Shown here: positions 29,606 through 43,970 of the stretch, in pieces | Numbering within the stretch: position 1 is the stretch's first letter | How the letters are laid out: every line of letters starts with the position of its first letter | Assembly (NCBI RefSeq): GCF_019295435.1 | Contig: NZ_WEKL01000022.1 | Span: 10,179-54,148 of the forward strand | Direction: 5' to 3' | Origin: Aquimarina litoralis | GTDB lineage: Bacteria; Bacteroidota; Bacteroidia; Flavobacteriales; Flavobacteriaceae | DNA length: 43,970 nt | Notes under the pieces: generated by a model | The model's input: only the letters and a program-made list of their open reading frames with translations | What the model was told of the DNA's origin: nothing | Databases searched by the model: none | Program-made: the position numbers and the translations under genes

Positions 29606-30496
29606 ATGAAATTACCTTACAATTTAAGAAATAAACAACTACAATTTTTGGTTCTACTAGTACTTACTAGTATGACAATTCAAGCACAGGACATTCATTT
29701 TACCTTTGCCAATGCTCAAAAAAGTATCGAAAATGGAAATTACTATTATGAAGCTGATATTATGATCGAAGCTTCAGAAGGCTTCAAATTAGGATCTGGC
29801 CAAATCTACCTAACCTACAATCCAGAAGCTTTTGGAGCTAATATTTCAAAAAATAGTGGGATTCAATATGCGTATGAACCTGGTTATATCTTAGGCGAAA
29901 ATTATACATTACCAGCCTATAAAAGCTTTATCCAAAATGACAATACTAATAATAGAGTTTCTTTTGCCTTCCAACAAGGAGTGAGTGCAGAGTCTATCAA
30001 CAAAGAAAATGTAACTACAGCTTCTAAGCCTTTATTTCATATCAAATTACAATATGTAGACGCAACTAAAGATCCTATGATTGCTTTTGAAGAAGGAGTG
30101 ATGTATCAAGATCAGTTTTTTACTGCATGCGGAAGCATGCTCAAAACTGGTGTTAAAGCTGGATTCCCTGATTGTGCTAATTTACCTGGTAAACAATTAA
30201 TGAATGACACTTACGATTCCAGTGGTGCTTCTTTACAAACTTTAAATATCGAAGAGCAAGAGATCGCAGCAGTTAGTTTATATCCTAATCCGGCAAAACA
30301 ACATTTTTTAATACAGGGTTTAGGGAATACCACAACAGATATCCGTATTACAGATACCAATGGCAAATTAGTACAAATGCTATCTAGTCATTCACTGGAG
30401 AACACCATTAATATTTCACAACTACAAACTGGTGTGTACTTTGTACAAGTAGATAGTCAAAACTCTCAAAAAAGTTACAAGCTGATTAAGGAATAA
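29606..30496 (+). CDS. Secreted protein with cohesin-like domain and T9SS sorting domain
   Basis: 296 residues. Signal peptide ending in TIQAQ (about 28); a beta-rich domain of about 150 residues (FKLGSGQIYLTYNPEAFGAN, NDNTNNRVSFAFQQG, PLFHIKLQYVD, QFFTACG); then a T9SS type A sorting domain (LYPNPAKQHFLIQ, ending QKSYKLIKE). The wording of the domain (a YNPxAFG strand and a late LFxIKxxY strand) recalls cohesin and related carbohydrate-binding folds, but this is pattern inference only. The same domain opens the next protein, including a GFPDC...PG motif. The sorting domain predicts export by T9SS and attachment to the cell surface. It is third in the cluster behind two proteins with dockerin-like ends. 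Confidence 0.85.
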   Translation: MKLPYNLRNKQLQFLVLLVLTSMTIQAQDIHFTFANAQKSIENGNYYYEADIMIEASEGFKLGSGQIYLTYNPEAFGANISKNSGIQYAYEPGYILGENYTLPAYKSFIQNDNTNNRVSFAFQQGVSAESINKENVTTASKPLFHIKLQYVDATKDPMIAFEEGVMYQDQFFTACGSMLKTGVKAGFPDCANLPGKQLMNDTYDSSGASLQTLNIEEQEIAAVSLYPNPAKQHFLIQGLGNTTTDIRITDTNGKLVQMLSSHSLENTINISQLQTGVYFVQVDSQNSQKSYKLIKE

Positions 30497-30529
30497 CCAA
30501 AAGATATCGCAGGCAACATAGTATCCTTT

Positions 30530-30579
30530 TATTAGCTGCAGTACTCCGCTTTTACCCATACCCCATAGCGCAGCTAATA
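30530..30579 (+). other. Hairpin between the two cohesin-like genes
   Basis: 10-bp perfect inverted repeat tattagctgc (30530-30539) and gcagctaata (30570-30579) with a 30-base loop and no T run after it. It may be a processing or partial termination structure in the 148-bp gap. Confidence 0.35.
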
Positions 30580-30644
30580 GGGAGCTATTTGCCAAAATGT
30601 AAGGTCATAACAACTACTTATAATAAAATTAAACCTAAAAAGAC

Positions 30645-33641
30645 ATGAAAAAAAATACCCTTTTAACCCTACTGATGCTACTTACTACAATAGTCGGCGC
30701 ACAGGACATTACATTCACCTTTGAGAATGCTAGAAACACCAATGATGGAACGGATGACTTTTATGAAGCTGATATTTACATAGCATCTACATCTGATTTC
30801 AAACTCGGTTCTGGACAAATCTATTTTAACTACAATACGGCTGCTTTTGGTGAAAATATTGATGCCAATAATAATTTCGAATATTTACAACCTGATGGTT
30901 CTATTTTGGCAGAAGTGTATGTATTGCCTGCATATAGTTCTTTTATTGCTAACGACAATACTAGTTCCAGAGTTTCTACCTCCTTCCAGCAAGGTTTAAG
31001 TAGTGGCGCAATTACTGATAATAATGTAACCAGTACTCCTAAACATTTATTTAGTATTAAAATAAAATATGCGGATATCAATGAGGAACCTATGATCACC
31101 TTTGAAACTGGAGCTGTATTTTTAGATCAGTTCTTTACTGCTTGTGGTCCTACAACATTTGGTTTTCCAGATTGTACAGACAACCCTGGAGTTCAAATTA
31201 CCAATGATACCTTCGATTCTTCTGGAGCTACTATAGTTGTGGACACTACGGCACCTATAATTAGTTTAACAGGAGATGCAACGGTGACTGTTGAAGCTGG
31301 AACTACCTATTCTGATGCAGGAGCAACAGCAACGGATGATATCGACGGAGATATCACAGCTGATATTGTTACGGCAAACCCAGTAGACACCTCTATTCCA
31401 GGAGTATACACCGTTACCTATAATGTAAGTGATGCTTCTGGGAATGCTGCCACAGAAGTTACCAGAGAAGTAACGGTAGCAGATACTACGGTTCCTGTCA
31501 TTAGTTTAACTGGAGATGCAGCAGTAACCGTAGAAGCAGGAACTACTTATTCAGACGCAGGGGCAACAGCAAGCGATTCTTTAGATGGAGATATTACAGC
31601 AGACATTGCAACGGTAAACCCCGTAGACACTTCTATTCCAGGAGTATATACTGTTACTTATAACGTAAGTGATGCTGCTGGAAATGATGCTATAGAAGTA
31701 ACACGAGAAGTGACTGTAGCAGATACAACCATTCCTGTGATTAGTTTAGCAGGAGACACAACGGTGACTGTAGAAGTAGGAACTACCTATTCCGATGCCG
31801 GAGCCACAGCAAGTGATTCTTTTGATGGAGATATTACAACAGACATTGTTACAGTAAATCCAGTGAATACTACAGTTCCAGGAGTATACACGGTGACCTA
31901 TAATGTAAGTGATGCAGCAGGAAATGCTGCTATTGAAGTAACAAGAGAAGTAACGGTAGCAGATACAACTATTCCTGTAATTAGTTTAACTGGAGATGCG
32001 ACTGTAACTGTAGAAGCAGGAACTACATATTCAGATGCAGGAGCAACAGCGAGTGACTCTCTAGATGGAGATATTACAGCAGCTATTGTTACTGTAAATC
32101 CAGTAGACACATCCGTACCAGGAGCGTATACGGTGACCTATAATGTAAGTGATGCAGCAGGGAATGCTGCTGTAGAAGTTACAAGAGAAGTAACTGTTTC
32201 AGATACAACCATACCTGTGATTAGTTTAACAGGAAATGCGACTGTGACTGTAGAAGCGGGAACTACCTATTCCGATTCAGGAGCAACAGCGAGTGACTCT
32301 CTAGATGGAGATATTACAGCAGACATCGTTACTGTAAATCCGGTAGATACAGCTGTTCCTGGAGTGTATACTGTTACTTATAATGTAAGTGATGCAGCAG
32401 GGAATGATGCTATAGAAGTAACAAGGGAAGTGACGGTAGCAGATACAACTATCCCGGTGATTAGTTTAACAGGAGATGCAACTACGACTGTAGAAGCAGG
32501 AACTACGTATTCAGATGCAGGAGCAACAGCATCTGACTCTTTAGACGGAGATATCACAACAGCTATCGTTACTGTAAACCCAGTAGATACTTCCGTACCA
32601 GGAGTGTACACTGTTACCTATAATGTAAGCGATGCTGCTGGAAATGCTGCGCTGGAGGTAACTAGAGAAGTAACGGTGTCAGATACAACTATTCCTGTAA
32701 TTACATTATCTGGTTCTGCAACAGTAGCCGTAGAAATAGGAACTACCTATACGGATGCCGGAGCTACAGCATCTGATTCATTAGATGGAGATATCACAGC
32801 AGACATTGTTACTGTAAATCCAGTGAATACTGCTGTACTAGGAGTATATACAGTAACTTATAATGTTAGCGATGCAGCAGGAAATGCAGCTGTAGAAGTA
32901 ACTAGAGAAGTAACCATAGTAAATACAGCTGTACCAGTAATAACATTATCAGGTGATGCAACAGTAACTGTAGAAGCAGGAACTACCTATACGGATGCAG
33001 GAGCTACAGCAAGCGACTCTGTAGATGGGGATATCACAGCAGATATTGTTACTGTAAATCCAGTAGATACGGCTGTACCTGGAGTGTACACCATTACCTA
33101 TAACGTAACGAATTCTTCAGGAAATACAGCTATAGAAGTTACCAGAGAAGTTACCGTAGAAGATACTACTGTTCCAGTGATTACCTTATTAGGAGATAAT
33201 CCATTAGAAATAGCGCAAGGAGAAGTTTATACAGATGCTGGAGCAACAGCAAGTGATTCATTAGATGGAGATATTACTGCAAATATTGTAGTTGTAAATC
33301 CAGTAGACACTTCGGTAGATGGAACGTACACTATTACCTATAATGTAATGGATGCAGCAGGTAATGCAGCAGCAGAAATAATCAGAACAGTAACCGTTTC
33401 TTCTGTTTTAGGGATAGAGGATAATGAGATTGATGGATTAGAAATATATCCGAACCCAACAACTGATAGATTATTTATTTCTTTAGATGTTAAAAAAGTG
33501 ATTATCTATAGCGTCACAGGACAAAAGATACTAGAAACTGCTAATAATAGTATTGAAATGAGTGAATTTGGAGCTGGAGTATATTTTCTGCACATTTTTA
33601 CTGAGAAAGGAAATGCTATCAAACGAGTGCTTAAAAAGTAA
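30645..33641 (+). CDS. Secreted protein: cohesin-like domain, nine DUF5011 repeats, T9SS sorting domain
   Basis: 998 residues. Signal peptide ending in IVGAQ (about 19); an N-terminal domain (about 20-195) clearly homologous to that of the preceding 296-aa protein (FKLGSGQIYFNYNTAAFG, DNTSSRVSTSFQQG, DQFFTACG, GFPDC); nine 80-residue Ig-like repeats of the DUF5011/HYR type (about 200-920; PVISLTGDATVTVEAG, GVYTVTYNVSDAAGN); and a T9SS type A sorting domain (LEIYPNPTTDRLFIS, ending NAIKRVLKK). The repeat stalk probably holds the N-terminal domain away from the outer membrane. It is the last large gene of the cluster. It could be an anchor for the dockerin-tailed LRR proteins (inference) or an independent adhesin. 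Confidence 0.88.
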   Translation: MKKNTLLTLLMLLTTIVGAQDITFTFENARNTNDGTDDFYEADIYIASTSDFKLGSGQIYFNYNTAAFGENIDANNNFEYLQPDGSILAEVYVLPAYSSFIANDNTSSRVSTSFQQGLSSGAITDNNVTSTPKHLFSIKIKYADINEEPMITFETGAVFLDQFFTACGPTTFGFPDCTDNPGVQITNDTFDSSGATIVVDTTAPIISLTGDATVTVEAGTTYSDAGATATDDIDGDITADIVTANPVDTSIPGVYTVTYNVSDASGNAATEVTREVTVADTTVPVISLTGDAAVTVEAGTTYSDAGATASDSLDGDITADIATVNPVDTSIPGVYTVTYNVSDAAGNDAIEVTREVTVADTTIPVISLAGDTTVTVEVGTTYSDAGATASDSFDGDITTDIVTVNPVNTTVPGVYTVTYNVSDAAGNAAIEVTREVTVADTTIPVISLTGDATVTVEAGTTYSDAGATASDSLDGDITAAIVTVNPVDTSVPGAYTVTYNVSDAAGNAAVEVTREVTVSDTTIPVISLTGNATVTVEAGTTYSDSGATASDSLDGDITADIVTVNPVDTAVPGVYTVTYNVSDAAGNDAIEVTREVTVADTTIPVISLTGDATTTVEAGTTYSDAGATASDSLDGDITTAIVTVNPVDTSVPGVYTVTYNVSDAAGNAALEVTREVTVSDTTIPVITLSGSATVAVEIGTTYTDAGATASDSLDGDITADIVTVNPVNTAVLGVYTVTYNVSDAAGNAAVEVTREVTIVNTAVPVITLSGDATVTVEAGTTYTDAGATASDSVDGDITADIVTVNPVDTAVPGVYTITYNVTNSSGNTAIEVTREVTVEDTTVPVITLLGDNPLEIAQGEVYTDAGATASDSLDGDITANIVVVNPVDTSVDGTYTITYNVMDAAGNAAAEIIRTVTVSSVLGIEDNEIDGLEIYPNPTTDRLFISLDVKKVIIYSVTGQKILETANNSIEMSEFGAGVYFLHIFTEKGNAIKRVLKK
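31242..33401 (+). repeat. 240-bp in-frame tandem repeat, nine copies
   Basis: Units start at 31242 and then every 240 bp to 33162, with no insertions or deletions. Copies 2-7 are most alike at the DNA level; copy 9 (GDNPLEIAQGE) has diverged most. Each encodes one Ig-like DUF5011-type unit. Confidence 0.92.
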
Positions 33642-33680
33642 ACAAGTTGATGATTGTTTTATGTAGTAAAAATTAACAAG

Positions 33681-33908
33681 ATGGCAAAGAGTCAAGAATT
33701 TTTAAAAAAGTTTTTACGTTTTATCAGTTCGGTTTCAATGGACAATACTGTAGACTCTTTGCTATCTATGGAAAATAAATTAAAACAATTAAAAGAAAAA
33801 TTAGCATCGCTCGAAGAGATAGAAACTAATCTACAAAATGATTTAAATGATTTAAACAATTTAAAAAAAACAACCTATGATAAAAAAGAAGACAATCTTG
33901 AAATATAG
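33681..33908 (+). CDS. Small coiled-coil protein, hypothetical
   Basis: 75 residues from the ATG at 33681; a TTG at 33654 would add nine unlikely residues. The sequence is highly charged with heptad-like leucines (SMENKLKQLKEKLASLEEIE, then LQNDLNDLNNL), predicting a cytoplasmic coiled coil with no signal peptide. It lies 39 bp after the 998-aa gene in the same direction and upstream of the strong terminator at 34062, so it may be the last gene of that transcript. I do not recognise the family; a chance open frame is possible. Confidence 0.45.
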   Translation: MAKSQEFLKKFLRFISSVSMDNTVDSLLSMENKLKQLKEKLASLEEIETNLQNDLNDLNNLKKTTYDKKEDNLEI

Positions 33909-34061
33909 GTTACAGGTAACCCTCACAATTTTTTATACAATACTGTTGTATATCATTCTACGATTATCTTTTGCTTGATTTGATAATCTAATAAATTGCT
34001 AGTTCTTATATAGAGAATTAAGGGGCTTTATATAAATTCAAATTGGCAATTCATGACGATG

Positions 34062-34093
34062 ACTGCTCAAAATTAATTTTGAGCAGTTTTTTG
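34062..34093 (+). terminator. Strong rho-independent terminator ending the surface-protein cluster
   Basis: 12-bp perfect stem actgctcaaaat (34062-34073) and attttgagcagt (34076-34087), followed by a run of T. It is the first clear terminator after the cluster that starts at 15731. Confidence 0.85.
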
Positions 34094-34133
34094 TATAAGA
34101 ATGTTTTTAGCAAAACTATGGTTAATTAAAAAC

Positions 34134-34169
34134 AAATCCCTTGTAAATACTAATTTTCAAAAGGGATTT
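34134..34169. repeat. Hairpin repeat, copy A
   Basis: aaatccctt (34134-34142) pairs with aagggattt (34161-34169) and is followed by gcaat. A second copy with the same layout is at 34751-34784; together they bracket the tRNA fragment. Confidence 0.6.
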
Positions 34170-34191
34170 GCAATGTTTTGTAATCGTGGAG

Positions 34192-34293
34192 GGATTAACT
34201 TTGTTCATCCCTTCAAGCTCACTCCTGCATATAAGAAACCTCGAGCTAGCGCTCTAGTTCTTTATTTTATTCCAAAGCTTCAAACTACGTTTG
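34192..34293 (+). repeat. 102-bp direct repeat, copy 1
   Basis: Near-identical to 34307-34408, offset exactly 115 bp. The last 52 bp (from cgagctagcgctctag through the caaactacgtttg end) are identical. The unit contains a small gagc/gctc palindrome. Confidence 0.9.
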
Positions 34294-34306
34294 CAATTCA
34301 CATTTT

Positions 34307-34408
34307 GGATTAACTGTGTTGATCCCTTGAAGCTCACTCCTCCAAATAAGAAACCACGAGCTAGCGCTCTAGTTCTTTATTTTATTCCAAAGCTTCAAAC
34401 TACGTTTG
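34307..34408 (+). repeat. 102-bp direct repeat, copy 2
   Basis: Second copy of 34192-34293, differing at a handful of positions in the first half only. Neither copy encodes a recognisable protein. Confidence 0.9.
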
Positions 34409-34423
34409 GCTTTTCCATAAATA

Positions 34424-34455
34424 AAGAACCACGCCAAATGCCGTGGTTTCTTGTT
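34424..34455 (+). terminator. Hairpin, possible terminator
   Basis: gaaccacg (34426-34433) pairs with cgtggtttc (34442-34450) with one bulged T, then ttgttt. It directly follows the second 102-bp repeat, which also contains an unpaired aaaccacg. Confidence 0.35.
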
Positions 34456-34477
34456 TGATGTGACCCAGAATGAACAT

Positions 34478-34546
34478 ATGTCGAACCCTTTTGAAAAAGA
34501 ATTGTTGAAAATCAAAGAATTAGCAGAGCACTTTAAAGTTGCTTAG
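34478..34546 (+). pseudogene. 22-codon ORF, possible relic
   Basis: Encodes MSNPFEKELLKIKEL and seven more residues before a stop. The start resembles N-termini of small HTH/excisionase-type proteins in Bacteroidota, but the match is too short to prove. Given the tRNA fragment nearby it may be a leftover of a mobile element. Confidence 0.2.
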
Positions 34547-34602
34547 TATAAATTAGCCAGAATGATGTGACTTCACTTCTACTCTATTCTTGAACCTAAG
34601 GG

Positions 34603-34644
34603 TTCATAAAATCAAGGTCGTAGGTTCAAATCCTGCTCCCACTA
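34603..34644 (+). other. tRNA 3' half (CAU anticodon), att-site-like fragment
   Basis: From 34603 the sequence follows tRNA positions 32-73 exactly: a 7-base anticodon loop ttcataa (anticodon CAT, T33 present), 3' anticodon stem aatca, variable loop aggtc, T stem gtagg, T loop ttcaaat, T stem cctgc, seven acceptor bases tcccact and discriminator a. The bases before 34603 do not pair with this half and no D arm is found, so no complete tRNA exists here. Anticodon-loop-to-3'-end fragments are the typical duplicate left by tyrosine integrases that target tRNA genes. The intact tRNA-Met or tRNA-Ile2 would lie outside the window. Confidence 0.7.
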
Positions 34645-34714
34645 ATAAACTTAAGTAAATCTTTTCTTAGTACACCTAGCTGGGGTGTTTAAACCTCTAG
34701 ATACAAAAATCAAA

Positions 34715-34736
34715 AACTCGCATGTTATCACGAGTT
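34715..34736. other. Small hairpin
   Basis: aactcg (34715-34720) and cgagtt (34731-34736) with a 10-base loop, 71 bp after the tRNA fragment. Possible old tRNA-operon terminator. Confidence 0.35.
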
Positions 34737-34750
34737 ATATCCAAAAAACG

Positions 34751-34784
34751 AATCCCTTGCAAATATCAGTGTTTACAAGGGATT
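34751..34784. repeat. Hairpin repeat, copy B
   Basis: aatcccttg (34751-34759) pairs with caagggatt (34776-34784), followed by tgcaat. It is a copy of 34134-34169, on the other side of the tRNA fragment. Confidence 0.6.
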
Positions 34785-34801
34785 TGCAATAGTTAGTAAA
34801 C

Positions 34802-34891
34802 ATGGAGAGAAATAATTCAAACTTTTTGAAAGAAGATGCTAGCTTAATTATCAGATTATCAATGGATTTAAAAAACAAGTATTTGACATAG
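34802..34891 (+). pseudogene. 29-codon ORF, possible relic of a ribbon-helix-helix protein
   Basis: The ORF contains DASLIIRLSMDLKNKYLT just before the stop. The IRLSxDLKxK wording is typical of the start of ribbon-helix-helix DNA-binding proteins found on mobile elements, but the rest is missing. Weak evidence; it could be chance. Confidence 0.2.
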
Positions 34892-35200
34892 TAATAAATT
34901 AATTTGCAAATATATTATAGTTTAAGAAAGATCATAAACTACCTTACAATTACTTAAAAAGAGAAAAACCACACTTTCGGGGTAAAAAAGACCAGCTTCA
35001 AGTGTAAATGAGTTTTACTTTTTCAAATTACAATTTTGCTTAATTTTTTAATAGAATTTTAGATAATTAATCTATCCGAAGTTCTATTTTTTTTCAACCA
35101 TTACCATTTTTTGGTTGTTCATTTCTATGTTTTAGCAGAGTTTATCAATTCACCATACAGAAATAAATAAAATCGCTTCATAAATTTAAGTTGTTTTATT

Positions 35201-35208
35201 TATTTTTG
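35201..35208 (+). promoter_or_regulatory. Candidate -7 box
   Basis: TATTTTTG fits TAnnTTTG, 24 bp before the ATG at 35233. No -33 match at the usual spacing. Confidence 0.35.
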
Positions 35209-35232
35209 AAAAATAATATGCACTAACCTTCA

Positions 35233-35817
35233 ATGAAATATTTAATTAAATTATTTCTATTTTTTTCTTCTAATCTGATTATCACATTTTGTTATGGTCA
35301 AACAGTTAATGAAAAAAGTGAAATAAAAAATTATTTATTAACTAAAGACGGGAAATTCATTGAACTCCATCCGGGTAAAACAGTGACTAGTTTTAGTAAA
35401 TATGTTCATGTAATAGGACCTAATAAAAATGGTAAACAAGGGGAGTATATGAAAATTAAAAAATCCAATGTAAAAAAGATAGTTATACGAAATGAACTTC
35501 ATCTTCCATTGGATCCGAATGCAAAACGCCCATATATTTTCCGAATAGTAGCTAAAAATGATGAGTATACTTTAGGGGTGACATATAGAATGAAAAAGTC
35601 AGGTGATAGCACCTTTTATAGGGATTATTTTGGCATCTTTGATAATAGTGGAAATGAAATTGTTTTTATTAAACTAAATCGAAATAAAAAGAAGAGTGTC
35701 GAAATTATTAAAAAATATTTTGGCGATTGCTTGAATGAATTTCTGCCCCAAACAAAAAGAGAAATGAAAAATAGTGGTGATTTATTGTTTACTGCAAATC
35801 AGATCATTTGTAATTGA
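35233..35817 (+). CDS. Hypothetical secreted protein (194 aa)
   Basis: Signal peptide (MKYLIKLFLFFSSNLIITFCYGQ) and a basic, lysine-rich mature part with beta-type stretches (GKFIELHPGKTVTSFSKYVH, DYFGIFDNSGNEIVFIKL). I do not recognise a family. It probably works in the periplasm or at the outer membrane. It stands alone: a gene-poor repeat patch lies upstream and a convergent broken gene downstream. Confidence 0.7.
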   Translation: MKYLIKLFLFFSSNLIITFCYGQTVNEKSEIKNYLLTKDGKFIELHPGKTVTSFSKYVHVIGPNKNGKQGEYMKIKKSNVKKIVIRNELHLPLDPNAKRPYIFRIVAKNDEYTLGVTYRMKKSGDSTFYRDYFGIFDNSGNEIVFIKLNRNKKKSVEIIKKYFGDCLNEFLPQTKREMKNSGDLLFTANQIICN

Positions 35818-35853
35818 ATTAAACATTTTCATTCCATTCGAATTATTTATAAT

Positions 35854-35878
35854 CCTTGTTATCCAAAGAAAAGCAAGG
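35854..35878. terminator. Possible bidirectional terminator
   Basis: ccttg (35854-35858) and caagg (35874-35878), with partly pairing AT-rich flanks (ataat / aattat), between convergent genes. The stem is short. Confidence 0.3.
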
Positions 35879-35898
35879 GAATTATTATACAATGTTGA

Positions 35899-36304
35899 CT
35901 AGTTTTTCTTCTTATATTTTAGCAAATCATCTTTTAGTTTCAACTTAGCGGTTTTCATGTCCATTCCATCAACTAATTGTTCTCCTCTAGGATTTAGAAT
36001 ATAATAATACGGTTGAATAGATGAATTAAATTGTTCTTTTTGAAATTTCTGCCATTTTTCATCTTTTTGCATTGGATCAACAAACATTCTAACATTTATA
36101 TAATTATATCTAAGAGTATGAAAAATCCTTTTATTTTGAATTAAAAAGTTTGACTTAATTTTTCCTATATTGATCCTATTAAAGTTTGAATACTATAGAA
36201 TATAGGTTTTTCTACCTTCTGTACTTTTATGACTTGTGATTTTCATTTTTTTTATTGCAATTAAAAGATAAAATAGATAATAGTGCTAAAACATACTTTT
36301 TCAT
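35899..36304 (-). pseudogene. Broken thioredoxin-like lipoprotein gene (internal deletion)
   Basis: The 5' part (ATG at 36304 to a stop at 36227) encodes a lipoprotein signal, MKKYVLALLSILSFNC. The 3' part (about 36141-35899) encodes the end of a thioredoxin-fold domain: INVRMFVDPMQKDEKW, then SIQPYYYILNPRG, where the proline after IQ is the cis-Pro position of the fold. The middle with the expected CxxC is missing and the frame is interrupted by stops. The two ends are best read as one gene that lost its core. The ATG at 36304 is two bases after the stop of the 216-aa gene upstream, so it was once the next gene of that operon. Confidence 0.6.
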
Positions 36305-36305
36305 A

Positions 36306-36956
36306 TTAATATTGTTTTTTCCATTTGTTAATTACTAATAGAGCAGAATCTAAACTTATTGCACGATATGAAGCATTCAATTTTGGAAACTTTTTTCGTG
36401 AAATTTCATTAAAAGCTGTTTGACATAGATATACACTATTTTTTTCAAGGTGTTTTGACATGTTATCTAATTTTAGTTCATTTTTCTTTTTCTTAGTTCT
36501 ATGTATTGAATCTAGGATAAAAGATTCACTAGTTTTATTACTATAATTATATATTAACCCAATTCTTGTTTCTACATTTTCATTTATTTTTCTTGAGTAT
36601 ATAATTGTTTCTGAAATTTTGTTTTCAGTAAAGGGATTGAGTAATAAGTTTTTTTCTATTGATAAGTAGTCACTCATTACCAAATTGAATTTATTACGCC
36701 TCCAAAATTTAGTGTATTTTGTCGTATCCTCTGGTTTAATGCAAGTCAATGTGTCATTAGGTTGAATATCAGTCCAAATGCTGTCCTCTTTCGTTCTTAT
36801 CCAATAAGTAACATTTCCTGTAATCCATCTGTCATTGATAGATCCAATCTCTTCAATAATTAGACTGTGGTTCTGTGTACGTTTCGTTATTTTAGATTGC
36901 TCATTTTTACAAGAAAATATGACCAATAAAAGAATAAAAAGTAAATCTTTCTTCAT
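36306..36956 (-). CDS. Hypothetical lipoprotein (216 aa)
   Basis: Signal peptide with a lipobox (LLVIFSC, lipidated Cys at about 16), then a polar, basic protein with ITGNVTYWIRTKEDSIW and a C-terminal ISLDSALLVINKWKKQY. Not recognised. A degenerate second copy of its last about 33 residues lies upstream at 37500-37604, so the gene belongs to a small local duplication. Probably exported to the periplasm or outer membrane as a lipoprotein. Confidence 0.65.
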   Translation of the reverse strand: MKKDLLFILLLVIFSCKNEQSKITKRTQNHSLIIEEIGSINDRWITGNVTYWIRTKEDSIWTDIQPNDTLTCIKPEDTTKYTKFWRRNKFNLVMSDYLSIEKNLLLNPFTENKISETIIYSRKINENVETRIGLIYNYSNKTSESFILDSIHRTKKKKNELKLDNMSKHLEKNSVYLCQTAFNEISRKKFPKLNASYRAISLDSALLVINKWKKQY

Positions 36957-37047
36957 TTTTAAACTTTAATTCTCATGACAGACCTCCTCTCAGATATAGG
37001 CAATGGTTAAAAGCAGAAAATCCGAGCTATGGTATTTATAATTTTAA

Positions 37048-37494
37048 TTATAGAACTATGTTTTTATCAAAACACGTGTTAAGTAATTTAAGTTCTTTAT
37101 CTAGGTATTCTTGTTTTCTTTTTCTTGAAATTCTACTTAAGTTTCTTGTAGGACTACATTGACTATAATTTAAGACTCTATTATCGTTTCTTAATCTATA
37201 ATTTCCATAAAATATCCATTTTCCTTTTACATTTGGTAAACCAGAACAAGATGTAAGATAATAACCCTCCAAAGTTGCTCCTATATTTACACTCCCCTTA
37301 AACACATCAATAACTTCAAATTCATAGCAATCATTTGAAGACGCCATCAGTTTACCTATGAAAATAATATCACTGCTTTCAATAATTTGAGAAGTTTGTT
37401 GCTCATTCCATTCATTCCAAAATTTTGTACACATACAAGCAAAAGAATCAGGGATAAATATTATTAAAAATATTATTAGAAAGTTTTTATTCAT
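37048..37494 (-). CDS. Secreted NTR/TIMP-like protein (148 aa)
   Basis: Signal peptide ending in FA, immediately followed by CMC, then SSDIIFIGKLMAS, YEFEVIDVFKGS, TSCSGLPNVKGKWIFYG and NYSQCSPTRNLS. A mature N-terminus beginning with Cys, an FxGK strand, a VFKG turn and late Cys residues are typical of the NTR (netrin/TIMP-like) fold seen in many secreted Bacteroidota proteins. The N-terminal part of the 1736-aa protease at 15731 has similar wording (EASVIVEGKVISS, YKNFKG). Ligand unknown. Same strand as the 216-aa gene, 91 bp apart. Confidence 0.6.
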   Translation of the reverse strand: MNKNFLIIFLIIFIPDSFACMCTKFWNEWNEQQTSQIIESSDIIFIGKLMASSNDCYEFEVIDVFKGSVNIGATLEGYYLTSCSGLPNVKGKWIFYGNYRLRNDNRVLNYSQCSPTRNLSRISRKRKQEYLDKELKLLNTCFDKNIVL

Positions 37495-37499
37495 AATGT

Positions 37500-37604
37500 T
37501 TATATGTTTTTCCCATTTTCAATTAGTAATAGAGCCGAATCTAAACTTATTTTACAATATAAATCATATTCTTTTGTAACTTCCTTATATCTAACATTAT
37601 AAGA
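37500..37604 (-). pseudogene. Duplicated C-terminal fragment of the 216-aa lipoprotein
   Basis: Reads YKEVTKEYDLYCKISLDSAL then LLIENGKNI and a stop, matching ISLDSALLVINKWKK at the end of the gene at 36306. No start or N-terminal part is present. It sits just upstream of the 148-aa gene. Confidence 0.6.
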
Positions 37605-37688
37605 CGATTATCAATTACTCATTTTCTTAAATATTTTACCTACTAAAAGCACAAAAATTGTTTGAATTATTAATGTGTTGTAGTTTAT

Positions 37689-38753
37689 TTACTTTTTGTA
37701 AATAATACGCTTAATTTTCCAAACTAAATCCCACATTCCCTGATCACCAATGTTATTTGATAATATTATTATAGTAATATCATTATTAAAAATTTTTAAA
37801 ACCATAGCTTCTGCTCCCCAAATATTTCCTTGTCTAGAAGCTGCTTTATGCTTTTCTTTATCGGATATGTTATATTCATAAACCCATAATCCACTGGCAT
37901 AATTATCACGATCTTTAACATTGTTTTGTGGTGTTAAAAGTGTTCTTAAAGTATTTTTACTTATTAACTTCCCTTTATGAAGTGAATTCGAAAAAGTAAG
38001 CAAATCCTTTACATCTGAATACATTGCTCCTGCAGCATAATAATTCTCAACAAAATACGGAATATCTCGTTCTAGTTTTTTGGTTTCTTCGTTATACCAA
38101 TAACATTGAGCTAAATTATCTACGATTGAATAATTAAACATACCAGTGTTTGTAAGATGTAAAGGTTTGATAATTTTTTGGCTAAGGATTTCATAAAAAG
38201 TTTTTTTGTAAATGCTTTCAAGAATCTTTCCAAGTATAACAAAATCAGCATTATTATAATTAAATTTTTCACCTGGAACATGTTGTAATGGTCCAGAACA
38301 ATAATTATCCACGATTTGGTCAGTCGTTAGTCTTTTTTCATATACCTCATCACCCTTATTTTCATAATCCTGCAAACCAGAAGTTGATGTGAGCAATTGG
38401 TATATTGTTACTTTATCTTTAGCTTCTCCATTATATTCTGGGAGATGCTTTCCAATTTTATCTTCTAATTTTACTTTTCCCTCTTCGACAAGTTGGTATA
38501 TTAAAACCGAGGTAAATAGTTTTGTCACGGAAGCTATCCTAAATCTGGTATTCAGTTTATTAGGCACTTTAAATTCTTCATTTGCATATCCATATGACTT
38601 AGAAAATATAATACTGTCTTTTTGTTGTATCAGTATATTACCATTAAATGAGTGATTTAAGATATAATCTTGAAGTGGCTTTTCGAAATCATTAGATTGG
38701 CAAAATATCGATGATGATACAATTAGAGCAATTAATAGACTGATATTTTTCAT
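37689..38753 (-). CDS. Serine hydrolase, beta-lactamase/PBP4 (class C) family
   Basis: 354 residues with a signal peptide (LLIALIVSSSIFCQ). The nucleophile motif SxxK is SVTK at 75-78 (RIASVTKLFTSVLIYQLVEE) and the YxN motif is YNN at 166-168. The third motif, expected as HxG or KTG near the end, is not clear (RQGNIWG occupies the place), so activity against beta-lactams is doubtful. Family members are periplasmic esterases, peptidases or DD-peptidase-like enzymes. Length is normal for a single domain. It is monocistronic, with 347 bp of empty sequence upstream. Confidence 0.8.
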   Translation of the reverse strand: MKNISLLIALIVSSSIFCQSNDFEKPLQDYILNHSFNGNILIQQKDSIIFSKSYGYANEEFKVPNKLNTRFRIASVTKLFTSVLIYQLVEEGKVKLEDKIGKHLPEYNGEAKDKVTIYQLLTSTSGLQDYENKGDEVYEKRLTTDQIVDNYCSGPLQHVPGEKFNYNNADFVILGKILESIYKKTFYEILSQKIIKPLHLTNTGMFNYSIVDNLAQCYWYNEETKKLERDIPYFVENYYAAGAMYSDVKDLLTFSNSLHKGKLISKNTLRTLLTPQNNVKDRDNYASGLWVYEYNISDKEKHKAASRQGNIWGAEAMVLKIFNNDITIIILSNNIGDQGMWDLVWKIKRIIYKK

Positions 38754-39100
38754 GATTTAGTTTATAAGGATTAGTATTTTATAAGGATGATGAAAAAAAT
38801 AGATTGTTACAGTCTAATAAAGTTTTTTTTGAATTTTAAAAGCTAATTACAAGGAATCTGGATACATTTGATTCCCAATTAAGTACTAAGAACATTTTTA
38901 AGTATGCAACAGATTAGAAATTCAAAAAACTTTCAAAGTACACAATACCTATATAATTTTTATGCCCCCTCAAACTATAAGTTTCCCCCCTAAAGTGCTC
39001 TTTACAAAAAGAAATAGTAAAATAATATTTTCCATCCAATTCTGGACGTTACCATAACAATTAAAACACTTGAACTAAAAAATATTATTAAGGACTTGTT
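38754..39100. other. Intergenic region, no gene seen
   Basis: 347 bp of AT-rich DNA upstream of the serine hydrolase. A short C-rich stretch (38985-38998, cccccctaaagtg) resembles cccctaagtg near 15593, but this is too short to interpret. Confidence 0.5.
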
Positions 39101-40228
39101 TCAATTTTCGTCTAGTCTTTTTAGTCTGTTAATGGCTTCTTCATTATCAGGCCATAATTTGATTGCAGTTTTAAAAGCGTCAATTGCTTTGTTTTTTTTA
39201 TCAACTTTTAGATAGGCATTCCCCAATTTGGTATAAGTCCCAGTAAGTGAAAGTTCTTTAATACTTAATTCATAAAGTCCAATACCTGTATCATAATCCT
39301 CATTTTCAATAAATTCATCCGCCAATGCATTAATCTTTTCCGGTGAAAAATTATATATAAAATAGTTATCCTTATTTTTTTTCAAAATATTGAACTTTTG
39401 GATACCCGCATCTAACCCTTCTTGAAGAATTACTTTTTTTATAACATTTCCAACAGAAATGAGAGGAACGTTTAATGGTTGTTCTTTGGTAAGAATTTTT
39501 TTAAGATACTTCGTAGAAGTACCATATATAGCATTTGCTCCAGTAGATTTAGCTGTTGCAGAACCTCCTACAATTCCTATTAATAACCCATTTTGATCCA
39601 CAATTGGAGAACCGCTAGCACCAGCTATATTAGCTTCCGCTTTTGATGAAAACACAATTCTACTACCTTCGATTTCTAATATTTCACCTTCTTTTATTAC
39701 ACATTTTTTATCTTTATATGGGCATCCAAAATAATAAACACTTTCGCCAATGTTAACCTCATTATATCTGGGTTTTAAAGGTTTTATCTTAGGAGAAATA
39801 TATCCTGTTTCAAAAACAATCCAATCACGTTCAGTAATTGTTGATTTAGGTCCATTAAGTATTTCAGAAGAGTCTGTATTTATGAGTTTCGTAATAACAA
39901 CAGAGTCTTTAGGGTTGCCTTTGGGATGCATTATCCATTTTTTCAAGTTTCCTTGTAAATCTACAGAATTCATCGATTTAGTCTTAGCAATCCAAAGTAT
40001 ATGCTTAGCAGTTACAGCCAAGGTATCAGATCCTGTGTCGACTAGAAATCCTGTTCCAGCATATTCAAAAGAAGAATGGATATAGCTTTCCCCATTTTTA
40101 TATTCTACATTATTTATCATTGCAATTGCTGGCCATTGTTCTTTTGGTTGATCAATCCAAGATTCTTGAGGATTTACTGCGCAACTTGTAAAAATAATGG
40201 TTAACAGGAAAATTTTAAGTTTATTCAT
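39101..40228 (-). CDS. Trypsin-like serine protease lipoprotein with TPR tail
   Basis: 375 residues. Lipoprotein signal (FLLTIIFTSC). The chymotrypsin-type catalytic triad is visible: H76 in VTAKHIL, D135 in RDWIVFE and S205 in GASGSPIVDQNG. The C-terminal about 90 residues form TPR helices (ALADEFIENEDYDTGIGLYE, then AYLKVDKKNKAIDAFKTAIK). No PDZ domain is present, unlike DegP/HtrA. It probably acts in the periplasm or on the inner face of the outer membrane on a partner recruited by the TPRs. 140 bp separates it from the next serine hydrolase gene upstream. Confidence 0.8.
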   Translation of the reverse strand: MNKLKIFLLTIIFTSCAVNPQESWIDQPKEQWPAIAMINNVEYKNGESYIHSSFEYAGTGFLVDTGSDTLAVTAKHILWIAKTKSMNSVDLQGNLKKWIMHPKGNPKDSVVITKLINTDSSEILNGPKSTITERDWIVFETGYISPKIKPLKPRYNEVNIGESVYYFGCPYKDKKCVIKEGEILEIEGSRIVFSSKAEANIAGASGSPIVDQNGLLIGIVGGSATAKSTGANAIYGTSTKYLKKILTKEQPLNVPLISVGNVIKKVILQEGLDAGIQKFNILKKNKDNYFIYNFSPEKINALADEFIENEDYDTGIGLYELSIKELSLTGTYTKLGNAYLKVDKKNKAIDAFKTAIKLWPDNEEAINRLKRLDEN

Positions 40229-40338
40229 GTTTTAAGAAATTGAATATTTTATCATTTTATTAGTTACTATTAAAAGAATATCAAATATTAAAGAAATACA
40301 CTTAGTTATTAATTTTGAGGTTTAGTTTTATGAATTCT

Positions 40339-40367
40339 ATTTGTCTTGTATTTTTGTATAGACAAAT
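40339..40367 (-). terminator. Hairpin after the 572-aa hydrolase gene
   Basis: atttgtct (40339-40346) and agacaaat (40360-40367) with a 13-base loop, one base after the stop codon on the minus strand. No T run follows, so it may be an mRNA-stabilising stem rather than a true terminator. Confidence 0.4.
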
Positions 40368-40368
40368 T

Positions 40369-42087
40369 TTATTGGTAGGTAAAAGGTTGATATACCTTGT
40401 TAAATACTAAATTTTCAACTCTATCTGTAGTAGCAATAAAGCCCTTAATCTTATTATCCTTTTCCTCAAATAAAAGTGTTCCAAAAAACCAAGTATCACC
40501 TGAAAATTTATGATGATCTAAGGGAGACAATGTTGTTTTTTCTTGCCGTTGATGTTTAGCAATCAAATTTCCATTTTCAAGAATTAATTCATAAGTAGTA
40601 CGCAGTTCAGGACTATAATAAAAACCTGTATATTCTTGAAGTTTTGAATTGTCCACATGATATTTTATTCTTTTGCCTCTGGAATTTTGACCATTATGAT
40701 TAAAAATCAACGTATCAAAATCACCATTTTTATTTTTCACAAAGGTAATTGTGGCACTTATTCTTCTAATTTGAAACTGTTTTTCATTAATGGTTTCTAA
40801 AGGAAGTGTACCCTGTCCAGTTGCTGTTATGTACAGTTGTTCTTCCTTTTCATTGAATTCCATTATGAAACCTGGTTGCAGCTCAAATTTACCCACATAT
40901 CTTTTTAATGTTTCTTTAGCAACAGCTCTTGATGGTTTCTGTATAGTATCAATAGACTTTCTACCTCCAAATGTTTGCTTATTATCTAGGTAAATATCCG
41001 CAATGGTATAAGCCTTTTCATCTGCATTCAATGATCCATCATTTGTGAGAACAATAATGGATAATTTTTCGTCAGGAAATCTTAAAATTTGGCTTCTATA
41101 GCCAGCATCGGCTCCACCATGACTAATGACTTTTCTGCCTTTATATCTCGATACTCTCTGCCCAAAAGCGTAGCTCAAAGTATCACCATTTTTCAAAATC
41201 ACGGTATTAGCTAATTTATCAAAGAGCTTTTTACTCCCAATTTTTAGTCTTTCGAAATTAATGACCCACTTGCTCAAGTCTTCAATACTTGTGCGTATGC
41301 CAGTATTTCCAACGATATCTTTTGAGTTTCTTATACCTTTCTTATAGCTCTTGCCATCAAAGAAATATGGACTTGCGAGGTTAGGAATGATTTTCTCATT
41401 ATTCTCAAACAAAACAGTGTTTTTCATTTCTAATGGAAGAAAAATGATTTCATTTAGATATTGATGAAAAGGTTTCCCAGATGCACGTTCGATTAATTCT
41501 GCCAATAGCATATAACCAGAATTATTATAAGAGAAATCTGTCTCAGGAGTGAAGTTCAACTCTTTTTGCTGACTAAGTAGTGTTAAAACGTTTTTTCTAG
41601 AAATCACATCTTCAATGTTCCAACCAGCCATACCTAATAAATAAGTGATACCTCTTATACCATGGGTATGCTGTGCTAATGTCTTCACTTTAATAGTTTT
41701 TCCAAAATCTGGTAATTCTGGAATATACTTTCTAATATCATCATCTAAAGCAACTTTTCCTTCCTCCACCAAATTTAAGAGGGCATATGCCGTGAATTGT
41801 TTTGAATTCGAAGCAATATTGAAAAGGGTTGATGGGGTATTTCTTATACCAAATTCAAGGTTTGCAAAACCGTATACTCCCTTAAATACAATGGTATTGT
41901 TCTTTATAATAGCTACAGTAGCTCCTGGAGTATCATCTATATCCCAAGATTTAAAAAGATGATTTATTTCCTGCTCCATTAACTTATCAATCTTATCAAT
42001 ACCCTTATTATGTTGAGCATTAATCATTACGTTTTGTAATACAAAAAGTGTTACAAAAAGGAGTTGTCTAAATTGTTTGTTTATCAT
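40369..42087 (-). CDS. Serine hydrolase, beta-lactamase/PBP4 family with C-terminal extension
   Basis: 572 residues from the ATG at 42087, where MINKQFRQLLFVTLFVLQNV forms a normal signal peptide; a TTG eight codons earlier is unlikely. The catalytic motifs are complete: SNSK at about 93-96, YNN in FSYNNSGYMLLAELIE, and HGG in VISHGGADAG. After about residue 390 a beta-rich region of about 180 residues follows (YVGKFELQPGFIMEF, then YTGFYYSPELRTTYEL), as in the lipocalin-like tail found in many secreted members of this family. Periplasmic peptidase or esterase; substrate unknown. Distinct from the smaller hydrolase at 37689. Confidence 0.85.
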   Translation of the reverse strand: MINKQFRQLLFVTLFVLQNVMINAQHNKGIDKIDKLMEQEINHLFKSWDIDDTPGATVAIIKNNTIVFKGVYGFANLEFGIRNTPSTLFNIASNSKQFTAYALLNLVEEGKVALDDDIRKYIPELPDFGKTIKVKTLAQHTHGIRGITYLLGMAGWNIEDVISRKNVLTLLSQQKELNFTPETDFSYNNSGYMLLAELIERASGKPFHQYLNEIIFLPLEMKNTVLFENNEKIIPNLASPYFFDGKSYKKGIRNSKDIVGNTGIRTSIEDLSKWVINFERLKIGSKKLFDKLANTVILKNGDTLSYAFGQRVSRYKGRKVISHGGADAGYRSQILRFPDEKLSIIVLTNDGSLNADEKAYTIADIYLDNKQTFGGRKSIDTIQKPSRAVAKETLKRYVGKFELQPGFIMEFNEKEEQLYITATGQGTLPLETINEKQFQIRRISATITFVKNKNGDFDTLIFNHNGQNSRGKRIKYHVDNSKLQEYTGFYYSPELRTTYELILENGNLIAKHQRQEKTTLSPLDHHKFSGDTWFFGTLLFEEKDNKIKGFIATTDRVENLVFNKVYQPFTYQ

Positions 42088-42341
42088 TTTATTACTTTTA
42101 AATTCTTTCAATTATTTTGGTACAGGTATCTAATAACTTTAGGTCTAATTCTTAATAAATTCAATGCTCTTTTTCGCTATTTGTGAATATCAAAACACTA
42201 TTGCCGAATCTTGATATCAAAATAATTCCCCTAAGTTTTCCCTTATACTAGGATTGTATTTCTTGATTATCAATTAAGCTCTGTGGAATAATTCGAGTTT
42301 TTAGGTATATCGAATAGAATACACAAAATATATTTACCACT

Positions 42342-42680
42342 TTAATAGTCGTCTATCTTGTTTTTTTCAATTCTGTAGTTCAATATAAGTGCTAATCCAC
42401 CAAATATAAATGTGAATGCAAAATAGAATACATTAGCATCCTCTACTGTAAATAAATAATTGACAAAATTCCCAATTAAAATACCAATACCAATTCCAGC
42501 ACTGACCATTCCAATTTTTAAAGTTATTGCTAAGATCTTGGTTTTATTATACAGTGAACTTGCGGACACACCATTTTCAATCATAGCCATACGTTCTCGA
42601 TGTCTCGTCTTCAGATAGAGATAAATAAGTCCAGAAATCGAAACTATAAATGTTATTGGTACTATAATATCTCCATTCAT
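42342..42680 (-). CDS. Small membrane protein, DUF6249-like
   Basis: 112 residues with an N-terminal transmembrane helix (IIVPITFIVSISGLIYLYL), a basic ERMAMIENG motif, and two further helices (ILAITLKIGMVSAGIGIGIL and VFYFAFTFIFGGLALIL). The RERMAMIE motif after the first helix is typical of a small membrane family often found beside ECF sigma genes in Bacteroidota. Divergent from the sigma factor at 42811 with a 130-bp gap, so possibly under the same control. Confidence 0.65.
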   Translation of the reverse strand: MNGDIIVPITFIVSISGLIYLYLKTRHRERMAMIENGVSASSLYNKTKILAITLKIGMVSAGIGIGILIGNFVNYLFTVEDANVFYFAFTFIFGGLALILNYRIEKNKIDDY

Positions 42681-42772
42681 TACAAATAATTTTTATTGTT
42701 ATTAATGTGATGCAAGAATGACGATTCAGGTTACATAAACTTGTAAACTTTTTAATTAATATGATCCGAAAC

Positions 42773-42802
42773 TGTAACGTGATCTTAAAAACTTGCATCT
42801 TA
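42773..42802 (+). promoter_or_regulatory. Candidate ECF-type autoregulated promoter
   Basis: TGTAAC (42773-42778), 16 bases, then GCATCTTA (42795-42802), right before the sigma ATG at 42811. The two-box form with an AAC-type -35 element suggests recognition by an ECF sigma factor. The transcript would have almost no leader. Confidence 0.35.
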
Positions 42803-42810
42803 AATATAAG

Positions 42811-43383
42811 ATGGGTTTTAAAAACGACTTAATATATATTGATAAAGTAAAAAAAGGAGACCTGACCGCCTTTTCTTATCTGGTAGAAAAACATAAAGAC
42901 ATGGTATATGCATTAGCTTTAAAAATTATAGGTAACACTATCGATGCTGAAGATGTCGCCCAAGAAAGTTTTATAAAAGCTTATCAGAATATAGGAGAGT
43001 TCAAGTTTGAGTCCAAATTTTCAACTTGGTTATACACTATAACATATCGGTCGGCACTATATCATAAACGAAAAAACAAGATTGATACTAGGTCTATAGA
43101 AACAAATGACGAAAAGAATTTTCAGACGAATTCCAGTTCGCAAATTGAAGATCTTAAAATAGGAGAGCAGCAGAAATTTATTAAAATTGCTATCGACTCT
43201 TTACCAGCTGTAGAAGGACTTTTGGTAACCTTGTTTTATATTGACGAAAACACCGTGGAGGAAATTAGCTCCATCACAGGCTTATCTGTCACCAATGTGA
43301 AAGTGAAGCTATTTAGGGCTCGAAAAAAAATACGAAAAAAGCTTAATATCTTGCTAAATGGGGATACAAGTTCAATTTTATAG
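42811..43383 (+). CDS. ECF-type RNA polymerase sigma factor
   Basis: 190 residues from the ATG at 42811; a TTG at 42793 is less likely. Sigma region 2 is clear (TAFSYLVEKHKDMVYALALK, then DAEDVAQESFIKAYQNI and FSTWLYTITYR), followed by a short linker and region 4 (TVEEISSITGLSVTNVKVKL, then FRARKKIRKKL). There is no region 1 or 3, so it is an extracytoplasmic-function sigma factor. The next ORF starts one base after its stop and encodes a membrane protein, the usual place for an anti-sigma partner. Confidence 0.92.
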   Translation: MGFKNDLIYIDKVKKGDLTAFSYLVEKHKDMVYALALKIIGNTIDAEDVAQESFIKAYQNIGEFKFESKFSTWLYTITYRSALYHKRKNKIDTRSIETNDEKNFQTNSSSQIEDLKIGEQQKFIKIAIDSLPAVEGLLVTLFYIDENTVEEISSITGLSVTNVKVKLFRARKKIRKKLNILLNGDTSSIL

Positions 43384-43384
43384 G

Positions 43385-43861
43385 ATGAAAAGAAAGGACG
43401 AACTTCTTATCAAGTTTATCAAATCTGTACAATTAGATACTCCAAGTCCAGATTTTACAGAAAATGTGATCACCTTCTTAAGTGAGGAATCTACATTGGA
43501 TGAAAAGATAGAAATAATATCAGAAAAAAATCTGGGAAGAAACCTATTGCCGTTGGCACCAAGTGATTTTTCGATTAAAACAATGAGAGAAATACAGGAT
43601 AGAGCTAAAAAACCAGCTTTACAGCCAATAGTATCTTTAAAAACTATGGCAATAAGCATATTAATTATAGGTTATCTTTTTTTAGTAATTGATGCGCTTT
43701 TTTTTAACGTACTTTATTTATCCGATGAATCCTTTTTCAATGTAGAATGGTTTCAAGCATTATATAATATACCAAAAGTGTTTTGGATTAGTATGATGGT
43801 CTTGACTATTTTGATCCTACTAGATTCCATTATTAAAAAGAACATGTCATTAAGTGAATAG
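43385..43861 (+). CDS. Membrane protein, putative anti-sigma partner
   Basis: 158 residues from the ATG at 43385, one base after the sigma stop; an upstream ATG at 43358 would overlap the sigma gene by 26 bp. A cytoplasmic N-terminal half (KDELLIKFIKSVQLDTPSPD) is followed by two transmembrane helices (MAISILIIGYLFLVIDALFF and FWISMMVLTILILLDSII). It has no zinc-binding HxxxCxxC motif of the ZAS type, so if it is an anti-sigma factor it is of another class. The call rests on position and topology. Confidence 0.6.
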   Translation: MKRKDELLIKFIKSVQLDTPSPDFTENVITFLSEESTLDEKIEIISEKNLGRNLLPLAPSDFSIKTMREIQDRAKKPALQPIVSLKTMAISILIIGYLFLVIDALFFNVLYLSDESFFNVEWFQALYNIPKVFWISMMVLTILILLDSIIKKNMSLSE

Positions 43862-43970
43862 TATATAAATTCAATGTTTTTTCAAATAGCTCTGATTTTC
43901 TACTTTTATCCAATACTTAAATCAGGTAGGAAGTCATATAAATATTTCATCGAATCTTTTTATGCTCAGA

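Follow-up and report, generated by a model that had tools for sequence, protein, structure and literature searches.

The initiator tRNA fragment in the Aquimarina litoralis window (the whole 43,970-nucleotide stretch of DNA analysed, C46:10179-54148 of a 6.3-Mb genome in 115 contigs) is best read from sequence comparison as an old remnant lying between two recombination sites, within a pile of attachment-site remains, a reading to which we give a probability of about 0.7. Its left edge would be the anticodon loop, which comparison with relatives points to as the exchange point of the integrases of this genus; the enzymes beside some intact initiator tRNA genes appear to be of the tyrosine type. 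Its right edge would be the tRNA 3' end, probably a second exchange site of the kind where large serine recombinases sit, as suggested by partner swaps of the flanks and by relatives in which a recombinase abuts an initiator tRNA half cut at the anticodon. The mobile elements would since have been lost, leaving a pile of ~0.7 kb in which we recognize putative tRNA-Arg 3' ends, the severed tail of a recombinase and two structured units of a type bounded by tRNA ends (Table 1); the site in the window is probably inert. On its own the fragment is an ordinary scar; the window copy has decayed among other such leftovers, and an island border is not demonstrated by it. Of greater interest is the family of tRNA-abutting serine recombinases found in relatives, together with small tandem units.

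Table 1. Features around the initiator tRNA fragment (window positions)
Feature	Position	Strand	Comparison
Terminator-like hairpin behind the Arg(TCG) relic	34128-34175	-	
tRNA-Arg(TCG) 3'-end relic, likely	34176-34196	-	18/21 vs gene at C81; E 0.24 alone
Structured unit, copy 1 (partial)	34192-34293	-	94% identical to copy 2
Structured unit, copy 2, ending in hairpin and GTGACC core	34307-34466	-	
tRNA-Arg 3'-end core GTGACC, joined to tail	34460-34465	-	
Composite of Arg core, recombinase tail and initiator tRNA 3' half (185 bp)	34460-34644	+	88% to A. latercula G065:C6:342518-342702
Severed 22-codon C-terminal tail MSNPFEKELLKIKELAEHFKVA* of large serine recombinase	34478-34546	+	
Initiator tRNA-Met(CAU) 3' half	34600-34644	+	36/45 vs own gene C93:3474-3546
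Parts of this half: anticodon loop TTCATAA; T arm; acceptor 3' strand; discriminator A	34603-34609 (loop); 34644 (discriminator)	+	
Overlap of two unlinked homologies	34636-34644	.	left flank to G065:C6; right flank to G019:C17 and G065:C8
Flank common to G065:C8 (to 34700) and G019:C17 (to 34669)	34645-34700	+	weaker likeness at C46:54.3 kb
Second hairpin with decayed Arg-type 3' end	34744-34810	-	79% identical to 34128-34194

The initiator tRNA fragment and its counterparts in Aquimarina

Positions 34600-34644 of the window read GGGTTCATAAAATCAAGGTCGTAGGTTCAAATCCTGCTCCCACTA, of which 36/45 bases are identical to the 3' half of the single initiator tRNA-Met gene found in the genome. The highest match of this 3' half in 200 first-order Markov windows was 27/45 (mean maximum, 23.5/45), and the runner-up place in the window itself reached 23/45. 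In a blastn comparison of 46 own tRNA sequences with the 90-kb contig, the pair of fragment and initiator gene had an E value of 5.7e-8 per query. The 28 bases preceding 34600 agree with the tRNA 5' half at 4/28 positions, which is chance level. An earlier note, made from the letters of the window, was therefore correct that a CAU-type tRNA 3' half is present and that its 5' half is absent. It placed the half at 34603-34644, which is right to within three stem bases (GGG), since the loop and the discriminator lie where it put them. The fragment is of the initiator type, not elongator tRNA-Met or tRNA-Ile2. The base-by-base agreement with tRNA architecture that the note described holds for the loop, for the T arm, whose pairing is retained, and for the discriminator, but not throughout: 9/45 bases are mismatched (80% identity to the intact gene), and decay in the anticodon stem has turned its 3' strand from CCCG into AATC. 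Because of these mismatches and the decayed strand, the fragment is not an exact attR copy. ARAGORN called no tRNA in the window, and a search of positions 30000-43970 against Rfam at E ≤1 listed two families and no tRNA match, as is expected for half a gene.

The intact tRNA gene that such a fragment calls for is thus present, on contig C93 rather than C46, and the boundary of the fragment lies at the same crossover subsite, the anticodon loop, as in 24/26 halves from relatives; what is missing is near-identity, so a search for an intact tRNA carrying the same 42 bases returns a cognate gene but an inexact copy. A 22-base probe allowed up to two mismatches found no second near-exact copy of the fragment in this genome; besides the fragment it matched one position in a tRNA array and two tRNA-Pro genes. 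Divergent tRNA genes form dense arrays in the genome at L060 (C105:1-6000) and L061 (C65:1-3000), and Rfam matches 14 tRNAs within the first 4 kb of C105; arrays of this kind are seen on large phages.

Comparison across the genus supports the view that the initiator tRNA gene is a heavy integration target, with 3'-half copies that start at the anticodon loop. The 3'-half pattern, with at most 2 mismatches, was present in 64/66 Aquimarina genomes, and 38 of the 66 had 2-5 matches (intact genes counted in). Among 40 of the listed loci that were read, 13 were intact by the cut-off, 26 were halves and one fell between (L255; 25/31 on the 5' part, called tRNA-Met by ARAGORN). CTCATAA is the exact start of 24/26 halves, the exceptions being CTCGTAA in one and CTATCCT in L238, and no more than 10/31 bases match in the 5' parts of the 26. 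The halves of relatives agree with the A. litoralis gene at 38-42 of 42 bases in 25/26 cases and at 31/42 in L238. Copies in a row with an intact gene, 5 to 82 kb apart, were observed in six genomes (G011, G017, G032, G016, G020 and G062). In 3/14 intact-gene loci, that of A. litoralis included, a frame of 450-464 aa lies 121-169 bp downstream of the gene; two of these three proteins have weak tyrosine-integrase domain matches and the third is 48-61% identical to them, whereas the remaining 11/14 loci have no such integrase directly downstream. Taken together, the genus-wide CTCATAA starts and the downstream tyrosine-type frames indicate that the mechanism proposed in the earlier note, integrase crossover in the anticodon loop, is right for the genus; in the window copy the 9/45 mismatches prevent exact placement of the exchange points.

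The same boundary would also fit a simpler history, in which the fragment is the attR of one integrase and marks the end of a genomic island at 34.6 kb. This is unlikely, since the fragment is not an exact copy, the partner of its right flank switches at the tRNA 3' end too, no integrase was found among 20 window ORFs scanned with Pfam, and synteny is lost well before this point. At the blastn cut-off used, the two closest katG neighbourhoods (G012 and G056) are syntenic with the window over LysR-katG alone, which places the synteny break at window position 13.45 kb and not at 34.6 kb. The island border that had been suggested at 34.6 kb is therefore not supported: the copy is decayed, synteny is already broken upstream, and a search for an integrase beside either copy was negative both in the 20 window ORFs and in the 6 ORFs scanned near the intact gene (of 8 ORFs of at least 150 aa in 12 kb).

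Several other features of these two neighbourhoods were observed. The window contains a run of large surface-type proteins at 3128-33641, with MBG/Ig-like repeats, leucine-rich repeats, a matrixin domain and Por secretion tails. Accessory genes at 35233-42111 include two beta-lactamase-fold proteins (PF00144) and a trypsin-TPR protein, and 3/6 scanned ORFs of this part had no Pfam match. A sigma-factor gene at 42.8 kb was found in 6/66 genomes, including this one (E ≤1e-40). ORFs by the intact initiator gene are aconitase-type, TIR and others. Downstream of that gene, at L139:4242-5153 and 6003-7748 (contig C93), are a TIR-domain gene (PF13676) and one with an FGE-sulfatase domain and a weak TIR-like match; both are possibly defence genes.

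The two edges of the fragment and the surrounding remains

The DNA on either side of the fragment has different partners in relatives. Homology of the left flank to A. latercula stops at 34644, the tRNA end, and homology of the right flank starts at 34636, covering 34 nt in G019:C17 (91%) and 65 nt in G065:C8 (86%); in both of these places other DNA replaces the tRNA body. As two homologies meet within the fragment, the flanks switch partner both at the anticodon and at the tRNA 3' end, and 34636-34644 looks like a second recombination junction. A. latercula also has the 185-bp composite, which makes the left junction old; it may have come in with a larger piece. A likely reason for the switch at the 3' end is offered by G067:C6 and G065:C1, where a serine recombinase gene continues directly into an initiator tRNA 3' half that has itself been cut at the anticodon; in G001 a gene of this kind adjoins the intact initiator gene. 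By comparison, the window looks like a decayed relative of the arrangement in G067:C6 and G065:C1. The alternative that the right flank is a recombinase C-terminus was rejected, because stops interrupt the frame in L017 and L089. In L017 (G019:C17), the conserved flank after the initiator core has an inserted transposase gene that is IS256-like on visual inspection.

Several tRNA scraps, some on the other strand, lie within ~0.7 kb of the window (Table 1), and similar ones are found on C46 beyond it, at 54.3 and 70.3 kb. Positions 34401-34465 are 83% identical to the stretch downstream of an intact tRNA-Arg(ACG) gene (E 3.6e-13). The likely Arg(TCG) relic is supported by C46:70.5 kb, where the same hairpin accompanies a relic matching 21/22 bases (E 0.001). 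The window also has a 33-codon ORF (33877-33978) for a small hydrophobic peptide with the C-terminus RLSFA*, which is followed by a conserved stretch with a hairpin (~33979-34095); copies occur at C40:57.0 kb and C2:95.9 kb.

In A. latercula the counterpart of the severed tail is the 22-codon end of a serine recombinase gene that is intact and encodes 543 aa. Its frame is open to the same stop in all 12 chosen copies (partial or decayed L117, L135 and L143 were left out), and changes among them fall mostly on third codon positions (426, versus 225 and 145 at the other two), with 44% of single-difference codon pairs synonymous versus 19% expected. Conservation of the ATG is not evidence here, as the rows were picked by a prefix starting from it. 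In G079 the far-end core of the tail occurs with no serine recombinase beside it, so that A. latercula and A. longa are the basis for linking the tail to the recombinase.

Arg core, tail and CAU-type 3' half occur together, with different downstream DNA, in 7 loci (the window, G065, G018, G015, G078, G076 and G002). This could mean that the half tRNA is a functional part of an Arg-targeting serine element, such as a decoy or a spare attachment site, lying 185 bp inward from the element's end. We regard such a role as improbable, because the halves are degenerate and their acceptor ends differ, and because the tail has no half within ~200 bases at G009, G019, G088, G059 and second places in G018 and G065. 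Less credible still is that a complete second initiator tRNA gene lost its 5' half here by ordinary deletion or point decay with no integrase involved: the decayed anticodon stem strand and the 9/45 mismatches would fit, but the 5' side is at chance level next to an 80% identical 3' half, the cut coincides with that of 24/26 other copies in the genus, and the 5' neighbour is homologous to DNA beside the recombinase in A. latercula.

Structured units behind tRNA-Arg genes

Counterparts of the structured units in the window were collected in an alignment (A1) of 23 chosen places; window copy 1, a self-complementary L140 hit, two further L136 copies, one from L110, one partial L137 copy, L121, L123 and hits shorter than 90 bases were left out. 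The unit ends at an intact tRNA-Arg gene in 16/23 places, all of them called by ARAGORN. On its far side, an exact GTGACC is present in 12/23 places and a one-mismatch version in 4 more, a loose test with an estimated chance success of nearly one place in five; window copy 2 has no GTGACC on that side. G088 (L288, G088:C2:990900-995400) has four exact 15-base tRNA-Arg(ACG) 3'-end cores in a row, 146, 146 and 170 bp apart; the tandem units stand behind tRNA-Arg(ACG), and each starts with the 3' end of that tRNA. Its 146-bp units differ in sequence from the unit of the window, and the 170-bp one is of the window's kind. Core pairs 145-169 bp apart were also detected in G058, G027, G015, G063, G028 and G016.

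RNAalifold predicted 21 pairs in the unit alignment, 9 of them with two-sided changes. A hand-drawn structure of 27 pairs is 94.5% paired, compared with at most 52.9% for slid versions, and has 42 two-sided cells versus 12.3 in shuffles (0/500) and 8 pairs with such changes versus 4.9 (5/500). An alternative, mutually exclusive pairing of the 3' end reaches 96.6% (slid versions, at most 58.4%), with 8 pairs versus 5.8 (22/500), and further pair types were not above shuffles (392 and 384 of 500). These values point to a candidate fold, to be read with the relatedness of the sequences left in by the controls and with structures drawn on the same alignment.

The tyrT repeats of E. coli, with rtT RNA, are short units that follow a tRNA gene in tandem, with a copy of the tRNA 3' end bounding each of them. 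The units reported here resemble them in layout alone, and no sequence relation is claimed; they differ in standing at tRNA-Arg, in belonging to Bacteroidota and in having their paired changes counted. The rtT family was not among the two Rfam families listed for window positions 30000-43970 at E ≤1. Tandem units bounded by tRNA ends would represent compact structured DNA with paired changes across species.

Serine recombinases abutting tRNA genes

Relatives of the recombinase to which the tail belongs were found in 28/66 Aquimarina genomes, and none was detected in the A. litoralis genome with the query recombinase at E ≤0.001. In 21 of the best 30 loci, an intact tRNA gene lies directly antisense at the recombinase 3' end, the kinds being Arg(ACG), Arg(TCG), Arg(TCT), Leu(TAA), Leu(CAA), initiator Met and Asn. 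One more locus of these 30, L168 (G010:C101), has a tmRNA gene in this position, so a tRNA or tmRNA gene is abutted in 22 of the best 30 loci of the longer list. The others comprise tRNA-derived pieces with no intact gene (L157, L175 and L176), a decayed locus (L180), one at a contig end (L166) and three with no tRNA at the gene end (L178, L182 and L183). The recombinase reading frames run on into the tRNA and end in C-termini such as VTSAGFKPATS. In a separate scan of genome contigs, 12 recombinase loci were found, 4 in Aquimarina and 8 outside; ARAGORN tRNA genes were present in 9/12, including 7/8 outside Aquimarina, where they lie within ~60 bp of the match end. The L125 gene has the Resolvase and Recombinase domains and the zinc ribbon of a large serine recombinase (PF00239, 7.1e-26; PF07508, 1.2e-10; PF13408, 4.4e-05, just below its cut-off). 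The gene at the initiator tRNA in L245 has PF00239, a sub-cut-off PF13408 match and no PF07508.

At tRNA-Arg(ACG), three joints of one exchange were observed: the joint recombinase-core-tail was found in A. latercula, and the joints recombinase-core-tRNA and terminator-core-tail in A. longa (G019), on two different contigs; in other genomes, tRNA-Arg(ACG) genes with no adjacent recombinase were seen. The terminator by tRNA-Arg(ACG) had been taken for an untouched host one, an interpretation that was withdrawn because the same hairpin stands at an island end; an undisturbed site is indistinguishable from one with an old insertion. A displaced tRNA 3'-end core of at least 12 bases was found in 0/11 cases within the 9-39 kb read upstream of 11 serine recombinases, hence no complete element with both ends on one contig is shown. 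Judged from these gene arrangements, the family appears to integrate DNA into tRNA genes.

According to a standard survey of 2014, serine integrases were not known to target tRNA genes (PMC4383910); the loci described here place them against tRNA genes of several kinds and a tmRNA gene. We found no report of serine integrases at tRNA genes in the open-access literature covered, in which the clear statement dates from 2014. For prophages of M. abscessus, 16 sites were counted that overlap a tRNA or tmRNA gene, and these belong to tyrosine systems (PMC10654092). The tRNA islands of tyrosine integrases catalogued with Islander are similar to what is seen here in having a displaced 3' fragment of the tRNA gene, crossover subsites at the anticodon loop and at the T stem/acceptor, and tandem islands at one tRNA gene (PMC4383910). 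The window fragment differs in being decayed, in having no integrase and in lying on a contig other than that of the intact tRNA, and its second edge points to a site of a serine recombinase. Streptococcal ICEs that use one serine integrase and target rumA have a direct repeat within the integrase gene at one end (PMC4701971). They share with the Aquimarina loci a repeat in the serine integrase gene and a reciprocal exchange of 3' parts, but their target is a protein gene, whereas the Aquimarina recombinase frame ends in the antisense strand of a tRNA.

A broader proposal is possible, which we put forward tentatively and rate somewhat below even odds. Bacteroidota may have a large serine recombinase family dedicated to tRNA and tmRNA genes, in which the 3' end of the recombinase gene is the antisense of the tRNA 3' part. 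Integration would trade a conserved native C-terminal tail for a tRNA-encoded one, thereby changing the enzyme, and the same recombinases would mobilise the structured units of ~146-170 bp that are bounded by tRNA 3' ends and stand in tandem behind tRNA-Arg; the window would be a fossil of such a site. If the recombinases act there, a wider set of enzymes would insert at the most conserved sites of bacterial genomes, and the exchange of the enzyme's C-terminus would offer a testable way of controlling direction.

The tRNA-Arg(ACG) core was found in 56/66 genomes, twice or more in 23. Six genomes have core pairs 35-53 kb apart in which the displaced copy reaches the anticodon (degenerate in G061), and 4/6 have a tyrosine integrase 185-206 bp inside, with PF00589 and PF13102 matches above cut-off. 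From their layout, these pairs look like ordinary islands. With serine and tyrosine types both present at tRNA-Arg(ACG), the same tRNA appears to serve both enzyme classes. A tyrosine integrase gene (PF00589, PF17293, PF13102) was also observed in the A. litoralis genome itself, just downstream of the intact tRNA-Arg(TCG) gene (L138:6365-7561), and may represent a live or recent element.
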